From the IMG/VR virus record IMGVR_UViG_3300020442_000013, positions 1 to 64,000 of that record: a DNA stretch of 64,000 bases, one strand, 5' to 3'. Under the pieces are notes generated by a model, which worked only from the letters and a program-made list of their open reading frames with translations, was not told the origin of the DNA and made no database searches. Origin of the DNA: a virus. This document shows, piece by piece, positions 6,979-48,414 of this stretch. The number at the start of each line of letters is the position of its first letter. Position 1 is the stretch's first letter. The translations under genes and the position numbers were made by a program.

Positions 6979-7551
6979 TTAAATGTATTGATTGAACACT
7001 TGTTGGCCGCACAATTCTAACGCACTTACATATTGCTCTTGTCCTTGCGAACCGAAGATAATATCATCGTTAGGATCTGCTAGTAGCCATGCAAGTTTTT
7101 CTGTGTAAGGACCATGTCCATTGACTTCTGCATGAAGTTGTCCTGGTTGCCATGCAGTGATGCCTGCAAATATTCTATAATACACAGGAATATCACCTTG
7201 CCCTAGTTTTTCAAACATAAGCATATCACTACTCACTGCAAGTTTATGAGCTGACTTTGTAGTGTGTTGTGAACTCCATTCATCACTATGCAACATCATT
7301 AATACACTTGGATTAATTGGTCCGCCTTTGAATAATTTAGGACGTCCGTCTGTAAAAAGTATACCTTTCTCATTGCAGATTTTTTTGACACTTGTGTTAC
7401 TATTTAAATTTAAAATCAAGCCTATTGTTGCATCGTCTGTGTCTTGCGTAACGTAGATAACAGTTTCTTTGAAAGGGTTTCCTACAGGTAACTTAGGATG
7501 AGCGATCAGAAGTTTTCCTTGATAGTTCTCTAGTAAACTTTGATTAGACAT
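6979..7551 (-). CDS. YqgE/AlgH family protein (UPF0301)
   Basis: 190 residues. The start GKLLIAHPKLPVGNPFKETV, then TIGLILNLNS and KLFKGGPINPSVLMMLH, match YqgE/AlgH proteins, which are widespread in bacteria and of uncertain function (reported to affect transcription in Pseudomonas). Full length for the family. Its start overlaps the endolysin stop by one base, so it is in the late operon. Confidence 0.85.
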   Translation of the reverse strand: MSNQSLLENYQGKLLIAHPKLPVGNPFKETVIYVTQDTDDATIGLILNLNSNTSVKKICNEKGILFTDGRPKLFKGGPINPSVLMMLHSDEWSSQHTTKSAHKLAVSSDMLMFEKLGQGDIPVYYRIFAGITAWQPGQLHAEVNGHGPYTEKLAWLLADPNDDIIFGSQGQEQYVSALELCGQQVFNQYI

Positions 7552-8444
7552 TATCCTATTGCCGTTCTTATGTTGCCTAGTGCGGCCATAGCCGTATCGT
7601 AATTAATACCGGCTTTGTTGCCGATTTTATCACCTGCATAATAACTTCTGCCTGACATATCTTTTGGCAAACCTGCCCAAGTTTTAGATAAACGTTTTAA
7701 AAAGTCTTCGTCTGATGTTTTTCCACGCATCCATCTGTCTAATCCATGGTTTAATCTTAAATGATATATAACAATCTTATCTTGTATCTCTGGAGTAAAC
7801 TTTGTTTTACGTGGGTCAAGCCCCATAGATTTTGCAACACCAATTAATGTTTTTCTTATGTATTGGTATCTACCGCTTGCACTGGATCCATGTTTTCTTG
7901 CTCTTTTACGCATGTCAGCATAAAGTTCTGCAAGGGTCATGTCTAGTATTTCTGGTTTGCGTCTGCCAGGATATACACTATCGTATCTACCACCTGATTC
8001 TGGTTTAGCAATTAAATCTAATAAGTCACCTATCTTACCAGGAGTTTCGCTTGGTGGTCCACTGAATGTTGGCATTGGTCCTATTTCTCCTCCGCCAGCG
8101 GCAGTTTTGTCAATCTTTACAGGTTCAACTTTTGGAGTCGTTCCTTTTTGTATTGAATCAATTTTCTCAGCCGCGGTAGTACCGAACTCTAATCCGCTAC
8201 CTGGAACATTATAGTCCTTCTTGAAAGCTCTTACAGCCCTTGTTGTTCTAGGACCATACTTGCCGTCTACGCCTGTAGAACCTACATCGTAACCTAGATC
8301 TTCTAAGGCTTGTTGTAACATTTTAACTTTTGGCACATCTTCCTTAGGATAAGGAGGACCAGCTTGTAACATACCATCTGCTGTGAGGTCGCGAATGGTA
8401 TCAAGTTCATCTGTGCCTACATTAAATATTTCACTGGTTATCAT
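7551..8444 (-). CDS. Endolysin: peptidoglycan-binding domain plus muramidase-like domain
   Basis: 297 residues. Residues about 38-97 form a PG_binding_1 domain (VKMLQQALEDLGYDVG, VDGKYGPRTTRAVRAFKKDY). After a Pro/Thr linker a lysozyme-like domain begins near 138 with the probable catalytic Glu149 in LLDLIAKPESGGRYDSVYP, then SSASGRYQYIRKTL. No signal peptide, so release needs a holin. It would cut host peptidoglycan at lysis. The gene overlaps its neighbours on both sides in the late operon. Confidence 0.8.
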   Translation of the reverse strand: MITSEIFNVGTDELDTIRDLTADGMLQAGPPYPKEDVPKVKMLQQALEDLGYDVGSTGVDGKYGPRTTRAVRAFKKDYNVPGSGLEFGTTAAEKIDSIQKGTTPKVEPVKIDKTAAGGGEIGPMPTFSGPPSETPGKIGDLLDLIAKPESGGRYDSVYPGRRKPEILDMTLAELYADMRKRARKHGSSASGRYQYIRKTLIGVAKSMGLDPRKTKFTPEIQDKIVIYHLRLNHGLDRWMRGKTSDEDFLKRLSKTWAGLPKDMSGRSYYAGDKIGNKAGINYDTAMAALGNIRTAIG

Positions 8445-23897: not shown

Positions 23898-24347
23898 AAG
23901 TATTTGAACTATGCCTCTCGTCACCTCAGACGAACCAAAATTTTCTATAGTTGAAACCGTGGGAAAATGTGAATCTCACCGTGATTTCCATACGAGAGGG
24001 GCCTCTTAACCCTGATCTAAGGGCCCTGTACGGTGCCTTAAAACCCCCCTTATCCTGAACCACCCTGATCGGCCTGAAGGCCTCTATACGCTTCTCTTAC
24101 ACGCTCTAAGAAGGGGTCTGAACGGTCTGAACTCTTTACTATGTTCTTAACACGCTCTTAACGCTCTGAATCAACTCTGTGCCCTAACCTTTTGAAATTG
24201 TTGGATTTTTTGGCCTCGGGAGCTGTCTTTTCGCTCGCCCTCGCCTCTACTATGTATTATCCAATAAAATCAATGTGTTAGCAGTCAAAGTTAATGTAAT
24301 GGATGAGGAGGGGTGTCACTAATATCGTTCTTTCACCTAAGTCATTG
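23898..24347. other. Noncoding region with hairpins and GTCTGAA/CGCTCT repeats
   Basis: No convincing gene on either strand over 450 bases. CCTCTCGT (about 23912) pairs with ACGAGAGG (about 23991) and encloses ACCGTG/CACCGTG motifs. Around 24040-24185 short words recur: CCTGA, GGTCTGAAC, ACACGCTCT. The minus-strand early promoter at 24550 reads into it after a short gene. Could hold an origin or a structured RNA. Confidence 0.45.
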
Positions 24348-24503
24348 TTATTGTTGGCTTTTTCGGGGTCTACCTCGTTCTTTCCGTTCTTCTACGTAAC
24401 CTCTTGATTTTGTTGGATTTTTTTTGGAGACACACAAGTCAGAATTCGGCCAGCCTGTAGCCCTTTGCTTTTTTTCTGCCCCTTGCTGTTTTGCTTTATC
24501 CAT
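24348..24503 (-). CDS. 51-aa basic protein with AT-hook-like motif
   Basis: MDKAKQQGAEKKQRATGWPN and later KERGRPRKSQQ. RGRPRK is the core of AT-hook minor-groove DNA-binding motifs. It is the first frame after a perfect minus-strand early promoter, but no ribosome-binding site is visible. Probably a small DNA-binding early protein. Confidence 0.45.
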   Translation of the reverse strand: MDKAKQQGAEKKQRATGWPNSDLCVSKKNPTKSRGYVEERKERGRPRKSQQ

Positions 24504-24549
24504 TTTTTTGCGGACGGGGTCGCTTAAAGCAGTTTCTTATTATGTTTAT

Positions 24550-24578
24550 ACTATAGCACAAACAACCCACATTGTCAA
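24550..24578 (-). promoter_or_regulatory. Minus-strand early promoter
   Basis: Minus-strand AGAGGTTGACA, 17 bp, TATAGT, followed by ATAAACATAATAAG, the full early consensus. Divergent from the promoter at 24613. Confidence 0.85.
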
Positions 24579-24612
24579 CCTCTTTTTCGCCAAAAAAAAA
24601 ATAAATTAGGGG

Positions 24613-24641
24613 TTGACTTTTGGACAAAATGAGACTACTAT
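24613..24641 (+). promoter_or_regulatory. Early promoter
   Basis: GGGGTTGACT, 17 bp, TACTAT; divergent from the minus promoter at 24550-24578. Confidence 0.75.
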
Positions 24642-24672
24642 GTATATAACAATTAAGCAATAGGAGGGCACA

Positions 24673-24810
24673 TTGCAAAACTTACTAAACAAAATTACAC
24701 TTTGGTTTTTGAACAGAGCATACGAGCAGATGGAGGCTAGTGGCGACTTGCAGAACGCAGACGATGTGGCTGAGCATATAGAAGATTATTTTACTAATTT
24801 TGTAAAATAA
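24673..24810 (+). CDS. 45-aa proline-free early protein, TTG start
   Basis: TTG stands exactly where ATG stands in sister cassettes (GAGGGCACA then TTG). MQNLLNKITLWFLNRAYEQM then an acidic helix. No proline; serine only by AGY. Function unknown. Confidence 0.5.
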   Translation: MQNLLNKITLWFLNRAYEQMEASGDLQNADDVAEHIEDYFTNFVK

Positions 24811-24813
24811 CGG

Positions 24814-24842
24814 TTGACTTTTGAGCAAAATGAGGTTATTAT
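24814..24842 (+). promoter_or_regulatory. Early promoter
   Basis: CGGTTGACT, 17 bp, TATTAT. Confidence 0.85.
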
Positions 24843-24875
24843 AATATTAACAATTAACAATAAATGAGGGCAAAT

Positions 24876-25379
24876 ATGATAAACACAAAAAACTTAACAG
24901 CAGATTTTAACGTAGATTTACACGTAAACGATTGGACAAAAAACATAGTAAACACAATTAGGGTTGTTGAAGACAGAGATGTGTTTACACAAGTTGAAAA
25001 AGATTTTGTGATACAGTTTTTGGTAAACACGCTAGACGGCTTAACACACATTAACATTGAAAGCAGACAAGAAGGTGCAGGCTTTTACAGAATGTGTGAT
25101 GCACAGGAAGTTATGACGCACTTAACAACATTGTATGATAACAACAATGCTAATGAAAGCATAGATGATAGCAAAATAGGCTGGCAGTTTACACTTGCAG
25201 ATGCTGCAGATGCATTGTTAGGCTACGATACAGAATACAGGGATTGTATTACAGAAAATTTTGATGATGCTTGTAATGATGCTTGTGAGGACAAGTTTTG
25301 GCAACAACACGCAGACGCAGATTTTACTACACTTGCTGCAAGAATATTTGCTAAAAACGGTTACAGCTGCTACGAATAA
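24876..25379 (+). CDS. 167-aa proline-free acidic early protein
   Basis: GAGGGCAAAT precedes the ATG at 24876. Asp/Asn-rich, helical (LADAADALLGYDTEYRDC, NFDDACNDACEDKFW), four or more cysteines, no proline. The gene has no TC or CC. Function unknown; strong acidity could fit a DNA mimic. Confidence 0.6.
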   Translation: MINTKNLTADFNVDLHVNDWTKNIVNTIRVVEDRDVFTQVEKDFVIQFLVNTLDGLTHINIESRQEGAGFYRMCDAQEVMTHLTTLYDNNNANESIDDSKIGWQFTLADAADALLGYDTEYRDCITENFDDACNDACEDKFWQQHADADFTTLAARIFAKNGYSCYE

Positions 25380-25395
25380 AACGGTAAAAAAAAGG

Positions 25396-25424
25396 TTGAC
25401 ACTATAGCATTTGTGTGCTATAGT
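25396..25424 (+). promoter_or_regulatory. Early promoter
   Basis: AAGGTTGACA, 17 bp, TATAGT; GCTATAG also occurs in the spacer as an inverted copy (CTATAGC). Confidence 0.85.
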
Positions 25425-25459
25425 GTTACTATAATTACAAAAGCATACGGAGGGCAACT

Positions 25460-25885
25460 ATGCAAAACACACGTTATGAACTACTAAACAAACTACAAGC
25501 TAAACTTGGGGACGCGATTACTATTTACGACGAGTATGAAGGCGAGCACAGACTGAATTTTTATAGTGTAAGCATAAACTTGGGAACAGGTTTTGCTGGG
25601 AACTACAAAGGTGGTTACTGGGGCGATTGTAATATTAAGAATGACGAGCTTAAACTTGCATTTGTATATGGGGACGTATACGATGAAGGTGAAGAGTGTT
25701 TTGGTGAGGGTACGGTACAATTAGAATATGCTGACGGTAGCGGACTTGCATACACAGGCGAGTTAGATAAACTTGTAGAGCGTAAGGTTGAAGAGCTTAC
25801 AGGCGGACTTATAACTTGTAGCGGTAGCGAACAGGGAATGCAGGGAGACGATTACTTGAGTGTAGACGTAGACGAGGCTGCATAA
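25460..25885 (+). CDS. 141-aa proline-free early protein
   Basis: GGAGGGCAACT precedes the ATG. Gly/Tyr/Asp-rich beta-type middle (NLGTGFAGNYKGGYWGDC), acidic tail. No proline, no TC or CC in the gene. No family recognised. Confidence 0.6.
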   Translation: MQNTRYELLNKLQAKLGDAITIYDEYEGEHRLNFYSVSINLGTGFAGNYKGGYWGDCNIKNDELKLAFVYGDVYDEGEECFGEGTVQLEYADGSGLAYTGELDKLVERKVEELTGGLITCSGSEQGMQGDDYLSVDVDEAA

Positions 25886-25890
25886 AACGG

Positions 25891-25919
25891 TTGACATATT
25901 GGATGTTGTGTGCTATATT
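25891..25919 (+). promoter_or_regulatory. Early promoter
   Basis: CGGTTGACA, 17 bp, TATATT. Confidence 0.85.
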
Positions 25920-25949
25920 AAAGCATAATAAAAATTAAGAGGGCAATAC

Positions 25950-26219
25950 ATGACACACTTAACAATTTATGCACTAGCACATGACAGCAATAGCACTGAG
26001 GACGTTTATATAAGTTTACATGACAAAGTAAAACTTTACATAAAACTAGCAGACAGCACAGGCAAAGCACTTGTGCAGCGTAGCGTCTCAAATTTTAAGC
26101 AGGCAATAACTGCATTGCAATGTTATAACATAACACACGTAGACATAAGCTACAACGTGGACGTAACAGACAGCATAAACAAACTAGCACACAAAATATA
26201 TTTGCACTATTTAAAATAG
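25950..26219 (+). CDS. 89-aa proline-free early protein
   Basis: GAGGGCAATAC precedes the ATG. Alpha/beta with repeated SLHDKVKLYIKLAD-like strands. The only two TC dinucleotides of the tract fall in one GTC TCA pair. No family recognised. Confidence 0.55.
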   Translation: MTHLTIYALAHDSNSTEDVYISLHDKVKLYIKLADSTGKALVQRSVSNFKQAITALQCYNITHVDISYNVDVTDSINKLAHKIYLHYLK

Positions 26220-26232
26220 TGCTTATATAGTA

Positions 26233-26246
26233 CGACCCCGCTGCTA
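26233..26246. repeat. Single CCCCGCTGC repeat
   Basis: CGACCCCGCTGCTA, identical over 14 bases to the copy at 10805. It ends the TC/CC-poor tract. Confidence 0.5.
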
Positions 26247-26282
26247 AGACACAGAATAAATGAGAAATTGGCAAATAAGAGG

Positions 26283-26311
26283 TTGACATTGTAAATAGAC
26301 TATGCTATAGT
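26283..26311 (+). promoter_or_regulatory. Early promoter
   Basis: AGAGGTTGACA, 17 bp, TATAGT, then ATAAACATAATAAGG; full consensus with the TTGGCAAATAA box. Confidence 0.9.
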
Positions 26312-26335
26312 ATAAACATAATAAGGAGATGGCAC

Positions 26336-26524
26336 ATGAAATGTTCGATTTGTAAGACGACTATTAAGAAGGATCCCCTAAGCGGTTGGGATGGTGGACA
26401 CAATGCAGAACCGGCAAGTCCGGGAAGATGTTGTGATGATTGTAATACGCACATTGTTATCCCTCTGCGTATTAACAATTTGTTTGCGGCTTCGAAGCCG
26501 ATTCCTAAAGAGGCACAATGCTAG
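26336..26524 (+). CDS. Small zinc-ribbon-like protein
   Basis: 62 residues. CSICKTTI and CCDDCNTH give two CxxC-type knuckles (treble-clef or zinc-ribbon look), with GGHNAEPASPGRCC between them. This layout recurs in phage proteins. Normal TC/CC use, unlike its left neighbours. Confidence 0.65.
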   Translation: MKCSICKTTIKKDPLSGWDGGHNAEPASPGRCCDDCNTHIVIPLRINNLFAASKPIPKEAQC

Positions 26525-26823
26525 ACAACTGGAGAACCGACTTTGACTGGACCGATCCTGAAGACGCTCCGGTCAGTTGGTCCGAGTTGGACGCTGAGTT
26601 AGAGAAGCAGAAAGCTCCTTGGGACCGGCCTGAAGCCCAGCAGACCCTGAAGGTCCGATTCGTCAATGGCGGCTCTGTAGGATGCCTTAGGACGGCCTCT
26701 GTAGTCAGACAGGAGCTCTGCGAACAGACTCTTATGCCGCTCTTAATAATCCAAGACCCTTGGAACCCACAGGAGACCCTAACCTGTCGTTGGTATGACA
26801 ACGAATGGGTCCATGAATCATAG
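26518..26823 (+). CDS. Early protein, 101 aa
   Basis: Overlaps the previous gene by 7 bases; AAGAGG upstream. Trp/Asp-rich start (DNWRTDFDWTDPEDAPVSW). GC-richer than its neighbours, with many CCTGA and GGTCC words. No family recognised. Confidence 0.5.
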   Translation: MLDNWRTDFDWTDPEDAPVSWSELDAELEKQKAPWDRPEAQQTLKVRFVNGGSVGCLRTASVVRQELCEQTLMPLLIIQDPWNPQETLTCRWYDNEWVHES

Positions 26824-26887
26824 AATAACCTGGCGTCTTATTAGGTCGGGAGATGTTCGAAGTTCTTTCGAGGCCGAAAGGCGAGAG

Positions 26888-26928
26888 GCATTATAGCACA
26901 TTTTATGCTATAATGCAAGTATTTTTTT
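26888..26928. terminator. Bidirectional terminator
   Basis: Stem GCATTATAGCA / TGCTATAATGC, 7-base loop, then ATTTTTTT. Lies between convergent genes. Confidence 0.8.
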
Positions 26929-27271
26929 AATTACTTAAATAAACGTAATTTTCTAAATTAATATTTTGCATTGCTGTATTTTCTACAACTTTATAAAATA
27001 AGCTGCTTTCATCGTAGTATGTAATGTTGTTAGCAAAAATTTCCATAATACTTTGTAAGCTAACATAATCGTTAGTTTCGTTTTGCACATATAAACATTG
27101 TAGTTGTGCAAAAATGTTAGCACTATTTAAAAAATAACTTGCACAAGTACAATCCATTTCCACAATTTGTAAATTATTGTAGCAATTTTCAATTACTTTG
27201 TACAATGTTTCCATGTGTACACTTTTAGTTTTAGTTGTAGTTGTTTTAGTTATTGTTTTTAATTGTTGCAT
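26927..27271 (-). CDS. 114-aa proline-free early protein on the minus strand
   Basis: MQQLKTITKTTTTKTKSVHM, then Asn/Tyr/Leu-rich helices with three cysteines near the middle. No proline. The start at 27271 fits the promoter at 27311-27339 and an AAGGCAG leader; a longer frame from 27322 would begin before the transcript. No family recognised. Confidence 0.55.
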   Translation of the reverse strand: MQQLKTITKTTTTKTKSVHMETLYKVIENCYNNLQIVEMDCTCASYFLNSANIFAQLQCLYVQNETNDYVSLQSIMEIFANNITYYDESSLFYKVVENTAMQNINLENYVYLSN

Positions 27272-27310
27272 ATAATACTGCCTTTTTTTAGTTAATGTTT
27301 TATTGTGTTT

Positions 27311-27339
27311 AATGTAGCACATAATTTTCCAAAATGCAA
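27311..27339 (-). promoter_or_regulatory. Minus-strand early promoter, variant
   Basis: Minus-strand CGGTTGCAT, 17 bp, TACATT in the context GTGCTACATTAAACACAATAA. Divergent from the promoter at 27385. Confidence 0.7.
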
Positions 27340-27384
27340 CCGTTTTTTTCCAAAATATTAAATTAAAAAATGGTAAAAAAAAGG

Positions 27385-27413
27385 TTGACAGTAGCAGAAA
27401 ATTGTGCTATTGT
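27385..27413 (+). promoter_or_regulatory. Early promoter
   Basis: AAGGTTGACA, 17 bp, TATTGT. Confidence 0.8.
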
Positions 27414-27446
27414 TAACTATAAAATAAAAAAGCGAAAGGGCAAAAG

Positions 27447-27647
27447 ATGGGAATGAGCAGTTATATTTTAGATTTAGAAGAGCAGTTTGACACAAAGGTG
27501 GTTGAAGCTATTAAAGAGAGCGAGCACGTGAGTGAGGCTATTGCTGGGGCTATGAAGCACAGAGACTTGGTTGCTAATTGGACAGACGACGAGATTGAAG
27601 ACTATGTGCATGACGGCTGGAACGAGGTTTGGAGAGATTATTTATAA
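27447..27647 (+). CDS. 66-aa proline-free acidic early protein
   Basis: AAAGGGCAAAAG precedes the ATG. Acidic, helical, ends in WTDDEIEDYVHDGWNEVWRD. No proline. No family recognised. Confidence 0.55.
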   Translation: MGMSSYILDLEEQFDTKVVEAIKESEHVSEAIAGAMKHRDLVANWTDDEIEDYVHDGWNEVWRDYL

Positions 27648-27663
27648 TTTGGTAAAAAAAAGG

Positions 27664-27692
27664 TTGACAATTGAATTTGTTTGTGCTATAGT
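27664..27692 (+). promoter_or_regulatory. Early promoter
   Basis: AAGGTTGACA, 17 bp, TATAGT, then ATAAGCACAATAAG. Confidence 0.9.
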
Positions 27693-27720
27693 ATAAGCAC
27701 AATAAGAGAACGAGGGCAAA

Positions 27721-27903
27721 ATGCAAATCATCAGATCAAAGAAATCATTGGCTACCCTAAACAACCGGAGGTTCTTCACCCCACCTACCTTGGCAGAGAT
27801 ATGCGAGAACCCAGAGTGGAAGCCGATCACCCTGCCAGACGAGCTAGACGAGCAATTTAACTTTTTTGACATTTTGGATAAAAAAAGGTTGACATCCGAA
27901 TAA
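27721..27903 (+). CDS. 60-aa early protein with a promoter in its 3' end
   Basis: GAGGGCAAA precedes the ATG. Contains prolines (FFTPPTLAEICENPEWKPIT), so unlike the neighbour to the left. The last five codons contain the -35 of the next promoter. No family recognised. Confidence 0.5.
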   Translation: MQIIRSKKSLATLNNRRFFTPPTLAEICENPEWKPITLPDELDEQFNFFDILDKKRLTSE

Positions 27904-27917
27904 CGGTGTGCTATAGT
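27889..27917 (+). promoter_or_regulatory. Early promoter inside a gene end
   Basis: AAGGTTGACA, 17 bp, TATAGT, then ATAAACATAATAAG. Confidence 0.9.
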
Positions 27918-27945
27918 ATAAACATAATAAGAAAGCGAGGGCAAG

Positions 27946-28167
27946 ATGGCTAGACAAGAAACAAACAGACTTTTAGAAATGATCGACGAGGGGTTGCTAG
28001 ACCCTAAAGAGGTCGTCACCATGTGCGTGAAGTACATGAGCGAGGACGAGGTTGCGGACATGATGGACGCTAACGAATTGTCCGAAAGGTTCGAGGAGGA
28101 CTATGAGGACGATGGGCAGCCGGACTGGCACCAAGAGTGGGAAGACTTTGGGGAGTGCTACGAATGA
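27946..28167 (+). CDS. Acidic early protein, 73 aa
   Basis: GAGGGCAAG precedes the ATG. Helical and acidic (LSERFEEDYEDDGQPDWHQE). No family recognised. Overlaps the next gene by 4 bases. Confidence 0.55.
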   Translation: MARQETNRLLEMIDEGLLDPKEVVTMCVKYMSEDEVADMMDANELSERFEEDYEDDGQPDWHQEWEDFGECYE

Positions 28168-28346
28168 GAGCACTCTGCATAGGATTGGCATTCTTCTGCG
28201 CCTTTGTAGGCGTAGGGGTGCTTGAGGATTGTGGCGGCGACTGTATTCCAGAAGACTACAATGCGGCCTGGAGATGGGTGGTCGCGATAGTGGCTGTGAT
28301 GGGTACGGCGTTCTTCGGCTTTGCCGGGGCTGTGATAAAAAGGTAA
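28164..28346 (+). CDS. 60-aa two-pass membrane protein
   Basis: ATG at 28164 by ATGA overlap. Helices at about 3-20 and 38-57 with CGGDC between them. Function unknown. Confidence 0.5.
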   Translation: MRALCIGLAFFCAFVGVGVLEDCGGDCIPEDYNAAWRWVVAIVAVMGTAFFGFAGAVIKR

Positions 28347-28354
28347 AAAAGAGG

Positions 28355-28383
28355 TTGACAAACGGTTTGAGAGACTGTATTAT
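28355..28383 (+). promoter_or_regulatory. Early promoter
   Basis: AGAGGTTGACA, 17 bp, TATTAT. Confidence 0.85.
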
Positions 28384-28413
28384 ATAGGTAACAATTTAGA
28401 AAGAGAGGGCCAA

Positions 28414-28878
28414 ATGGGAACAAGATCAACGATAGCAATGAAGAAGCCAGAAGGTGGCGTGGTTGCGATATACTGTCACTGGGATGGATACCCTGCCCAC
28501 AATGGGGTGATCCTGAATAAGCATTGGACAGACACAGACAAGATAGCTCAACTGATTGGGCTAGGAGACTTGTCAAGCCTAGGTACAGAGCTAGGCGAGA
28601 AGCAGGACTTTGACAATAGGGAGACCCAATCGGATGGTTGGTGCTTGGCCTATGGCAGAGACCGTGGTGAGACGGATGTAGAAGCCCGTCACTATCCAGA
28701 CGTTGAGTCCTGGATTAAGTCTAAGGCAGAGAGCTGGTGCGAATGGGCGTACCTGTGGGATGGAGAAAATTGGCTAGTCCACCAAATCAAGGACGAGAGC
28801 ACGGAGTATCCTGTGTTCGACTTTGCTGATGTTGTATTATTGCAACACCAAAAAGAAATCGCAGAAATGGCAAAATAA
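28414..28878 (+). CDS. Conserved phage/plasmid protein (MGTRSTI type)
   Basis: 154 residues. MGTRSTIAMKKPEGGVVAIY then CHWDGYPAHNGVIL is a pattern common in phage and plasmid proteins; function unknown. GAGGGCCAA precedes the ATG. The MAK-stop end lies in the next promoter's box. Confidence 0.7.
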   Translation: MGTRSTIAMKKPEGGVVAIYCHWDGYPAHNGVILNKHWTDTDKIAQLIGLGDLSSLGTELGEKQDFDNRETQSDGWCLAYGRDRGETDVEARHYPDVESWIKSKAESWCEWAYLWDGENWLVHQIKDESTEYPVFDFADVVLLQHQKEIAEMAK

Positions 28879-34015: not shown

Positions 34016-35026
34016 ATGAGATGTGGTTGGGCCGACAACATACTGGTAGTTGAAACAGATGGGTACACCAGAGCCTGTTGTACAGAACCAAGAGAAAGTG
34101 CAAGAATTGCACCCGTCAAAAATGGTATGTTGCAAGCATGGCAATCCATCAAACTACAACAACTTAGAAAAAATCTTGAAACAGGTTACAGTGATCAAAC
34201 TGAACCATACTGTTCACGTTGTAGGGAACTAGAAAATGCAGGTCAAGCAAGTCTGCGTACTGGGCAACCCATACTAGGTGATCCAGGAGAACTAAAAGCA
34301 ATACAGTTCAAACTTTCAAACGTATGTCAACTAGCATGTGCCCATTGTGGACCTGCCCTTAGCAGTCAACACAACAAATGGCGCAACGGTGGCTCAGGTG
34401 TTATTCGTTCAGTAGAAGACATACAACCAATCATACGAGATCTCAGAGAAGTATTACCACAACTTGAATGGATCAAGTTCACAGGTGGCGAACCTTGGCA
34501 TGACACGCAACATTGGCGTATACTAGAAGGTATCAAAGATTTAGATCGCAGTCATTTAGAATTACGTTACATTTCAAATGGTCTTGGCAAACCCTGGGAA
34601 CATCTTTGGGAAGGTTATAAAAACATTCGCATTGATATTAGTGTAGATGGACTTAGAAGTCGTTACGATTGGTTTCGTAGGAACAGTGATTATGAACGAG
34701 TGGTTCGTAAATTTGAATACTACAACATGAACTATGATGTTAAGATTGCTTGGTCTATGACACCGTGGACCGTAGAAGACTATGCGGAAGCAAGAGAAAT
34801 ATTTGACAACATGTATACCACGCCAGTTGTGTTTCCTATGTGGGCAAATCTAAAAATGGTACCCCAAGGACTTCTTGCACTACCAGCAGATACTCCAGGG
34901 CTAAACACAATGAAGGGTGATGCAACCAGTTTAGCAGTACTAAGAAATTGGAGTGAACGTTGGGATAAACGTTGGGGAACACTGGGTTGGGGTAAACAGT
35001 TGTATCCGTGGTTATATCATGTATAG
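34016..35026 (+). CDS. Twitch-domain-type radical SAM protein
   Basis: 336 residues. CQLACAHC (C104, C108, C111) is the CxxxCxxC radical SAM motif, followed by KFTGGEPW (SAM-binding GGE) and a TIM-barrel-like pattern. The N-terminus has an extra cysteine set (CGW, CC at 21-22, CSRC near 66-69) that fits an auxiliary cluster as in twitch/SPASM proteins. It would use a 5'-deoxyadenosyl radical on an unknown, possibly peptide, substrate. No companion peptide gene is evident. Confidence 0.85.
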   Translation: MRCGWADNILVVETDGYTRACCTEPRESARIAPVKNGMLQAWQSIKLQQLRKNLETGYSDQTEPYCSRCRELENAGQASLRTGQPILGDPGELKAIQFKLSNVCQLACAHCGPALSSQHNKWRNGGSGVIRSVEDIQPIIRDLREVLPQLEWIKFTGGEPWHDTQHWRILEGIKDLDRSHLELRYISNGLGKPWEHLWEGYKNIRIDISVDGLRSRYDWFRRNSDYERVVRKFEYYNMNYDVKIAWSMTPWTVEDYAEAREIFDNMYTTPVVFPMWANLKMVPQGLLALPADTPGLNTMKGDATSLAVLRNWSERWDKRWGTLGWGKQLYPWLYHV

Positions 35027-47289: not shown

Positions 47290-47746
47290 TCTCAATCCCG
47301 TGTTCTTCTGCAAGTTCTTTAAGTTCTTTTTTTGTAGATATTGTAGCAAGTAATTCAACCTCTTTTTGTTTCATGTTAGGGTAAATTTGTTCTAAAAATT
47401 TTATTACAGCATTATTATTGGCGCCTTTTTTCTTAAAGCCTATATACGGATGGAATTTTATTTTACCCCAAGCACCGCTCATACATAACAGTTGCCACAT
47501 AAGTTCTTGATGTCCATTTTCTCTACCTACACCTATTGTATTAAAGTGCTTATTGTAGTATTCATTTGTTTTGAATACTGCGAGCTCCATTTCTTCTCTA
47601 GACCCTTGTACGGCGCTTATATAGCGATTAAGAAGCCAAAAAGACACCTGTTTACGTTCTTCAATAGAAAGTTCTTTCCATACATTTTTGGCATTCATAT
47701 CAATTGCCGCTAGTATATCTTTTATTGGGAGTTTCTGCGATGCCAT
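47276..47746 (-). CDS. Conserved T4-type protein, 156 aa
   Basis: MASQKLPIKDILAAIDMNAK, WLLNRYISAVQGSREEMEL and EIYPNMKQKEVELLA-like segments resemble a helical family common in marine T4-type phages; function unknown. An annotation as clamp-loader small subunit (gp62) would fit the neighbourhood but I cannot support it. Confidence 0.6.
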   Translation of the reverse strand: MASQKLPIKDILAAIDMNAKNVWKELSIEERKQVSFWLLNRYISAVQGSREEMELAVFKTNEYYNKHFNTIGVGRENGHQELMWQLLCMSGAWGKIKFHPYIGFKKKGANNNAVIKFLEQIYPNMKQKEVELLATISTKKELKELAEEHGIENAKF

Positions 47747-48414
47747 TCTTCAAGTTCCTCAGGAGTGTTTATTTCCATGCCATTAAAATCAACTTCAAAC
47801 ACAGACATACTGTATCCATTCTGTAACCATCTCAGTTGTTCTAATTTTTCAATTTGCTCTTCTGTATATTGCATCAAATTTTTGTAATTTGTTAGTGCTT
47901 CTTTTGTATATCCGTATACACCAAGATGATGTGAACCATACTCAAGACTAGATCTACAAAACCAATGTGCTTTGTTATCTGTATGTATAAGTTTAACACT
48001 ATTAGGATCTTTTTGCAAGTCCTTATTCATCTTTGTATACACGGTCACAACGTCCTCGCTCAAAGCAAGTCCATTTGCAATACTTTTAATTATTTCAACT
48101 GTTATGTCTGGCATGTCACCTTGAACATTGATAATACCATCGTAAGAATCTAGCATAGGAAAAGCAGAGCATCTTTCTGTGCCGTTATCATAATATTTCT
48201 CCATATAAAAGCAGTCGCCTTCAGGAAATAAACTATGCACACGTTTGCTATCTGTTAAAACATATACGGGAAATCCTGATTCCTTACATCTGTCATAAAC
48301 TCTTTTTACCATTGGTTTTCCGTTAAGTAAAGCAATAGGTTTTTCAGGAAATCTAGTACTACCCATTCTTGCAGGAATACAAATTGCATAATTTAAATTT
48401 TTATGTTTCATCAT
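47722..48414 (-). CDS. kdsB: CMP-Kdo synthetase (3-deoxy-manno-octulosonate cytidylyltransferase)
   Basis: 230 residues, close to the usual 245-250. IPARMGSTRFPEKPIALLNG, RVYDR, DNGTERCSAF, IINVQGDMP, HLGVYGYTKEALTNY and EKLEQLRWLQNGY are the KdsB motifs. It activates Kdo with CTP for lipopolysaccharide or capsule. Likely works with the glycosyltransferases at 54-58 kb. Confidence 0.85.
   Translation of the reverse strand: MMKHKNLNYAICIPARMGSTRFPEKPIALLNGKPMVKRVYDRCKESGFPVYVLTDSKRVHSLFPEGDCFYMEKYYDNGTERCSAFPMLDSYDGIINVQGDMPDITVEIIKSIANGLALSEDVVTVYTKMNKDLQKDPNSVKLIHTDNKAHWFCRSSLEYGSHHLGVYGYTKEALTNYKNLMQYTEEQIEKLEQLRWLQNGYSMSVFEVDFNGMEINTPEELEEWHRRNSQ

Follow-up and report, generated by a model that had tools for sequence, protein, structure and literature searches.

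Why does a stretch of viral DNA that holds several genes and abundant cytosine contain no cytosine preceded by a pyrimidine on the sense strand? The window analysed here is the first 64 kb of a virus record of 101,244 bases; YC denotes TC or CC, and RC, GR, GY and so on denote the analogous dinucleotide classes. An earlier note on this DNA had reported a tract without TC or CC, and our recount agrees, with TC = 0 and CC = 0 in 24592-26085 (1494 nt), where about 140 YC are expected from the window's own rate (6005 YC in 64 kb). All 217 C of the tract follow A (136) or G (81), and the sole YCs between 26085 and 26236 are the TCs at 26086 and 26088 (TCTC, 26086-26089). The depletion is confined to one strand, as the note had held, GA (110) and GG (77) being frequent on the same strand. 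When all sets of one or two dinucleotides were tested, the {CC,TC} gap (1496 nt) was the top deviation in the 64 kb. Two adjoining YC-free stretches were found besides the main tract, 27351-27727 on the plus strand and 26888-27371 on the minus strand; the latter has no GA or GG on plus and therefore no YC on minus, where ORF E sits (Table 1). Leaders and all codon phases obey the rule, which confirms that the nucleic acid, and not protein alone, is under constraint; the tract proteins almost lack proline and take their serine from AGY codons. An Rfam search over 24000-28500 gave no match.

Table 1. Features of the YC-free module in the window, coding sequences (CDS) without GR in related records, and stretches of Pseudomonas phage Paride free of both YC and GR (for Paride, record positions are those given plus 100000).
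Feature	Record	Positions	Strand	Counts or basis
Main YC-free tract	window	24592..26085	+	0 YC in 1494 nt
Predicted sigma70-like promoter 1, TTGACT-17-TACTAT	window	24613..24641	+	read in sequence
ORF A, 45 aa, TTG start, AGGAGGG leader	window	24673..24810	+	YC 0 / RC 20
Predicted promoter 2, TTGACT-17-TATTAT	window	24814..24842	+	read in sequence and promoter scan
ORF B, acidic, 167 aa (171 aa from ATG 24864)	window	24876..25379	+	YC 0 / RC 77
Predicted promoter 3, TTGACA-17-TATAGT	window	25396..25424	+	consensus and promoter scan
ORF C, 141 aa, EQGMQGDD family (many phages)	window	25460..25885	+	YC 0 / RC 61
Predicted promoter 4, TTGACA-17-TATATT	window	25891..25919	+	consensus and promoter scan
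ORF D, 89 aa	window	25950..26219	+	YC 2 (TCTC at 26086-26089) / RC 52
CCCC terminating tract, 17 nt 3' of ORF D stop codon	window	26236..26239	+	
Second YC-free tract	window	26888..27371	-	0 GA/GG on plus
ORF E, 131 aa (114 aa from ATG 27271)	window	26927..27322	-	YC 0
Third YC-free tract	window	27351..27727	+	0 YC
Predicted promoter of ORF F, TTGACA-17-TATTGT	window	27385..27413	+	promoter scan
ORF F, acidic, 66 aa	window	27447..27647	+	YC 0 / RC 23
Zero-GR CDS	L009	7509-7751	-	YC 0, GY 27
Zero-GR CDS	L009	8006-8257	+	YC 0, GY 26
Zero-GR CDS	L165	3685-3930	+	YC 3, GY 37
Paride dual-free stretch	L168	10597-10745		
Paride dual-free stretch	L168	36249-36408		
Paride dual-free stretch	L168	38614-38831		
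Paride dual-free stretch	L168	48339-48481		

Each of ORFs A-D has its own predicted TTGAC(A/T)-17-TANNNT promoter and a leader that contains a ribosome site of the GAGG type, and each side tract holds one ORF (ORF E in 26888-27371, ORF F in 27351-27727). Four of the six proteins of the module in the window are acidic. Palindromes overlap module promoters in the window at 25396-25424, where ACTATAGCA..TGCTATAGT covers the spacer and -10 of promoter 3, and in the related contig L009 at 7470-7495 and 8275-8305 (CACTTGCAA..TTGCAAGTG); they look as if they were repressor binding sites. Rare YCs beside or inside the tracts lie in similar CCCCGCTG/GGCCCCG elements (window 26230-26250; L009 6450-6490 and 6880-6900), those of L009 being located 3' of an extra predicted promoter, and such an element is possibly a small RNA or a terminator. 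Elsewhere in the window, the genes at 6979-7551, 47722-48414 and 34016-35026 are AlgH-like, a cytidylyltransferase (CTP_transf_3) and a radical-SAM/SPASM gene, respectively, which together with the Pseudomonas relatives is a hint that the host is Gram-negative.

Homologs of ORFs B, C and E were found in many viral contigs. The YC-free tracts recur in independently assembled contigs and are therefore not an assembly error, one of the objections by which the earlier note would have been refuted. In the related contigs (49-331 kb) there is one compact YC-free module per phage amid normal genes; YC tracts were seen in records of 49 kb (G001, which has a minus-strand tract as well), 116 kb, 191 kb, 237 kb and 331 kb and elsewhere. 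The largest module spans 3.57 kb with 13 YC (G017, 79856-83422, minus strand) and the cleanest 2.25 kb with one YC (L163, 3489-5739). The ORF A homologs in L009 and L163 have no YC either, and the same holds for the L009 homolog of ORF B (59% identical). More than 20 unrelated families of small ORFs are affected. Per gene, YC/(YC+RC) is bimodal, 2-10 genes lying near 0 and nearly all others at 0.2-0.6. Whole-record scans gave no long tracts for RC, GY, CR or YG and no more than occasional weak segments for RG and CY; with a stricter tract threshold, 24 YC tracts were obtained versus none for GR, RC, GY, CR, YG, RG or CY. The phages have a T4-like core in common, and their structural and replication genes have normal YC. 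In some related phages the same genes as in the module have normal YC, and in the ORF C family tree YC-low and normal states alternate with at least 11 changes, most forks of the tree being weak. Among the bacterial genomes searched, a match was found in one MAG contig only.

The position of the boundary was determined on 22 first-in-tract genes with low YC and promoters predicted by consensus. Sequence 5' of the -35 box has YC at the ordinary density (0.079-0.096 per nt); this falls to 0.029 in the spacer, to 0 of 132 from the -10 box to the start, and the leaders hold 2 YC in 597 nt. Inner genes of the tracts have almost no YC anywhere, upstream included. The claim that the rule covers promoters, leaders and genes therefore stands for leaders and genes but not for the promoter of the first gene, the ban beginning approximately at the predicted transcription start. 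As the tract at 24592 starts some 20 nt before the first -35 box, the transcribed tract begins near 24648. In the ORF E family nature has done an inversion experiment. The gene is co-oriented with its neighbours in L163 and points against them in the window and in L009, and in either orientation its sense strand has 0 YC, in four of four homologs. The ban tracks the sense strand. The YC tract and its transcript-level nature are firm, and a ban on the RNA strand from the predicted 5' end of the transcript is what avoidance of an effector acting on single-stranded RNA predicts.

We then compared homologs, as the earlier note had proposed. When L022/L092, two nearly identical sequences, are left out, 19-41% of the aligned bases and 29-60% of the third positions differ between divergent YC-free homologs, which still have 0 YC, so the rule is actively maintained. 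The note had suggested that the cassettes come from a replicon with this constraint; they would be newly acquired from a wholly YC-free replicon and would be decaying to normal composition. The YC fraction of ORF C homologs is continuous, from 0 to 0.53 (RC stays about the same at low and middle values), as such decay would have it, but the highly diverged YC-free homologs stay at zero, no YC-free genome was seen and each phage has a single module among normal genes. We regard this origin as the least probable of all the explanations considered.

The note had also suggested a deaminase, that is, a YC-specific cytosine deaminase that attacks the non-template strand while transcription exposes it and turns YC into YT. 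The choice between YC and RC is the classic one for deaminases, and the depleted strand is indeed the non-template strand. At fourfold sites after Y, the tracts have A.54, T.36 and G.10, and ordinary plus-strand genes A.38, C.16, G.18 and T.27; the lost C has gone to A or G at least as often as to T, with no T surplus. The YC sites of YC-richer homologs align in YC-free homologs to YT.29, RC.18, RG.15 and YA.13, which is the same mix as among the YC-richer homologs themselves. Since the replacements are A or G as much as T, the mixed changes argue for selection and not for deamination. The C-to-T replacement at YC expected of APOBEC-like hypermutation was thus absent and, with the residual YCs in predicted structure (see below), a deaminase is largely refuted and is a highly improbable cause. 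NYC codons are depleted about tenfold, the same as TCN and CCN, although C to U is silent at NYC, so the pressure does not come from what C-to-U editing would do to the encoded protein. These comparisons show that purifying selection strips 5'-YC-3' from sense RNA, from the predicted start through the CDS and in all codon phases. Of the causes named in the earlier note, the best fit is selection against a reader of YC in RNA; the deaminase and the constrained replicon do not hold.

The 156 residual YCs of 46 depleted genes were examined in predicted RNA structure and compared with dinucleotide shuffles of the same genes. The C of a residual YC had a predicted unpaired probability of 0.255 versus 0.361 (s.d. 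0.023) in the shuffles; the values for RC in the same genes were 0.365 and 0.376. The same test on YC-rich genes gave no YC-specific pairing excess. With gene ends removed, the values were 0.240 versus 0.335 (30 of 41 genes; gene-level Wilcoxon p = 3e-4), and the excess survives a model of context and composition. That scarce YCs might pair well simply due to the abundance of GR partners is controlled by the dinucleotide-preserving shuffles. Avoidance of RNA structure as the cause of the depletion was rejected, as the leftover YCs are more paired than expected and structure avoidance predicts the reverse; paired residual YCs also argue against a reader of double-stranded DNA. The remaining YCs thus appear, from the folding predictions, to be tolerated mainly where the RNA is base-paired, as would targets hidden from an effector acting on single-stranded RNA, and we conclude that it is probably the unpaired YC in sense RNA that is selected against.

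We also considered whether TC/GA and CC/GG are banned in double-stranded DNA, through restriction, modification or avoidance of a CRISPR PAM. Most tract genes have plenty of GR on the sense strand, the depleted strand follows gene orientation and the boundary lies at the predicted transcription start. Depletion on both strands was not observed in the window tract, for which such a ban is refuted, and as a general explanation it is very improbable. What speaks for it is that three genes, two of them without any YC, lack GR altogether (Table 1) and that Paride has four stretches of 143-218 nt without both YC and GR; for dual-free stretches of this kind a ban on double-stranded DNA could hold. 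The proteins of the three zero-GR genes are basic, with no Asp or Glu, and the leader of L009 8006-8257 is also without GA and GG and so has no Shine-Dalgarno sequence. In other genes GR depletion is graded. Residual GR in GR-poor genes showed no pairing signal in predicted structure, and we therefore do not claim the same mechanism as for YC. Between the two divergent YC/GR-free genes of L009 lies a YC-rich spacer (7836-7910 plus flanks) bordered by TTAACATGTTAA-type palindromes, which looks like an operator or an insertion boundary. Pseudomonas phage Paride is a cultured relative by its terminase (54.5% identity). Its dual-free stretches have ordinary GC content, and several appear non-coding; one lies upstream of a tRNA array and has repeated promoter-like TTGCAA..TATAAT units. 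Paride also has a few low-YC small ORFs and no strong strand-specific YC tract.

The tract proteins gave nothing convincing against domain libraries, and no known family was matched. DNA and protein searches of a phage collection with ORFs B and C gave no named relatives besides one 36% match of the ORF C family to Xanthomonas phage X1, whose locus is without a YC tract. The fold of the ORF C family (L016, 5968-6330) was predicted with confidence (mean pLDDT 92); it had no match to solved structures in the PDB and three matches among predicted viral proteins, none annotated with a function.

Taken with the folding predictions, the data define an agent that would recognise unpaired 5'-YC-3' in mRNA, tolerate RC and make single sites costly. 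We put at about even the chance that this is a host defence effector that acts on single-stranded RNA with dinucleotide specificity, reads unpaired YC in mRNA and is escaped by the module. The host factor would recognise unpaired YC and then destroy or inactivate the mRNA, an endoribonuclease or an mRNA-modifying enzyme of such specificity being the most likely type. The module proteins, often acidic, would be needed while the factor is active, for example in counter-defence, a role that is a guess since they match no known family and no fold in the PDB. Judged from the predicted promoters and the small, often acidic products, the module genes are probably early. The remaining phage genes would be expressed before the factor acts or after it has been neutralised; among close relatives, phages that carry the ban would be adapted to hosts that have the factor and the others to hosts that lack it, and the genes lacking both YC and GR would be written against two readers, one of YC and one of GA/GG. 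The more specific proposal, that an immune effector of the host reads unpaired UC/CC and that phages answer with a counter-defence module whose dinucleotide alphabet is reduced, is tentative. Against a defence effector stands at least one operon, that of L016, which continues into a gene with normal YC on the same transcript.

The main rival, and a serious one, is evasion of Rho, in which transcripts without unpaired YC would not load Rho, so that the module is transcribed even if translation is delayed or fails, for example in hosts that are starved or shut down. At the primary binding site of Rho, 5'-YC repeats are the initial contact points, in unstructured C-rich RNA (PMC9160355). The sense strand, the leaders, the coding sequences and the predicted single-strand dependence all fit, and by counts and predicted pairing the module offers no unpaired YC for primary sites; residual YC pairs 3-13 nt apart are also slightly rare (39 observed versus about 53 expected), although this signal is weak. 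Rho requires several YCs, however, whereas here even single YCs are gone over 1.5 kb. Evasion of Rho would also lead one to expect few C>G stretches, few YC pairs spaced 9-13 nt and leaders more depleted than translated sequence. Genes with C>G occur, so that C>G bubbles appear not to be avoided, and in an informal comparison the CDS are about as depleted as the leaders despite the expected shielding by ribosomes. Rho leaves the genes that also lack GR unexplained, and only part of the promoter-bearing small genes are affected. We consider evasion of Rho unlikely, and a defence effector is ranked above it because single YCs are removed, C>G appears to be tolerated, the depletion extends to the CDS and a second ban is seen in some genes.

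RegB of T4 cuts GGAG and clears mRNA in the role that a further rival would assign to a YC-reading endoribonuclease of the phage itself, which would clear host and early phage mRNA, the module being the genes that have to remain expressed afterwards. The same transcript-level and single-strand evidence applies here, and the T4-like core of these phages suits it. Structural and replication genes that are needed late nevertheless have normal YC, as do the module's own genes in some related phages. Profiles of RegB (PF10715) and PemK/MazF gave no match in eight phage records, although the RegB profile matched no control genome either, and searches for a Rho RNA-binding domain, Rof, RegB and PemK encoded by the phages were negative. 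We consider a phage nuclease improbable.

Escape through loss of target sequence is itself old, and phages evade restriction by losing target sites. Restriction-site avoidance involves both DNA strands and longer words, whereas here it is one strand and one dinucleotide class, bounded by transcription. In animal RNA viruses CpG and UpA are suppressed in connection with ZAP and RNase L, and there too viral RNA avoids a dinucleotide read by an attacking factor; that suppression is statistical and genome-wide, while here YC is banned almost absolutely, and in only one module of a double-stranded DNA phage. To our knowledge, known viral dinucleotide avoidance is partial and genome-wide, and no YC ban in phages was found in the literature searched, a search that was not exhaustive. 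The part of the CmdTAC paper drawn on here describes the right type of agent for such a ban, a defence factor reading one dinucleotide in single-stranded mRNA: CmdT ADP-ribosylates GA in single-stranded RNA of mRNA and not in double-stranded RNA, and no GA-avoiding phage gene set is mentioned in that part (PMC11618068). CmdT reads GA, and the module bans YC (in a few genes also GR); avoidance of the CmdTAC target was rejected, the window tract having 110 GA and only three genes elsewhere zero GR. Csx1/Csm6, the ancillary RNases of type III CRISPR, are likewise single-strand-specific with a specificity of one or two bases, SyCsx1 cutting single-stranded RNA at C and SisCsx1 preferring CC (PMC9676260), but none is named with strict UC and CC specificity, and SisCsx1 is reported to prefer CC, not UC. 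Rho, which nearly all bacteria have, makes its contacts with YC where RNA is unstructured (PMC9160355); it needs YC clusters and RNA with C>G, while the module lacks even single YCs and appears to tolerate C>G. If Rho is the reader, the modules are a clean natural set of Rho-proof transcripts. What is new with respect to all of these systems is that a module of phage genes is under a dinucleotide ban which is nearly absolute and has the bounds of the transcript. As the ban is near absolute, module-confined, strand-specific and sensitive to predicted folding, the forbidden step would be a fingerprint of the attacker's specificity, and this could offer a route to finding, from phage sequence alone, defences that attack mRNA and the genes that phages most need protected.
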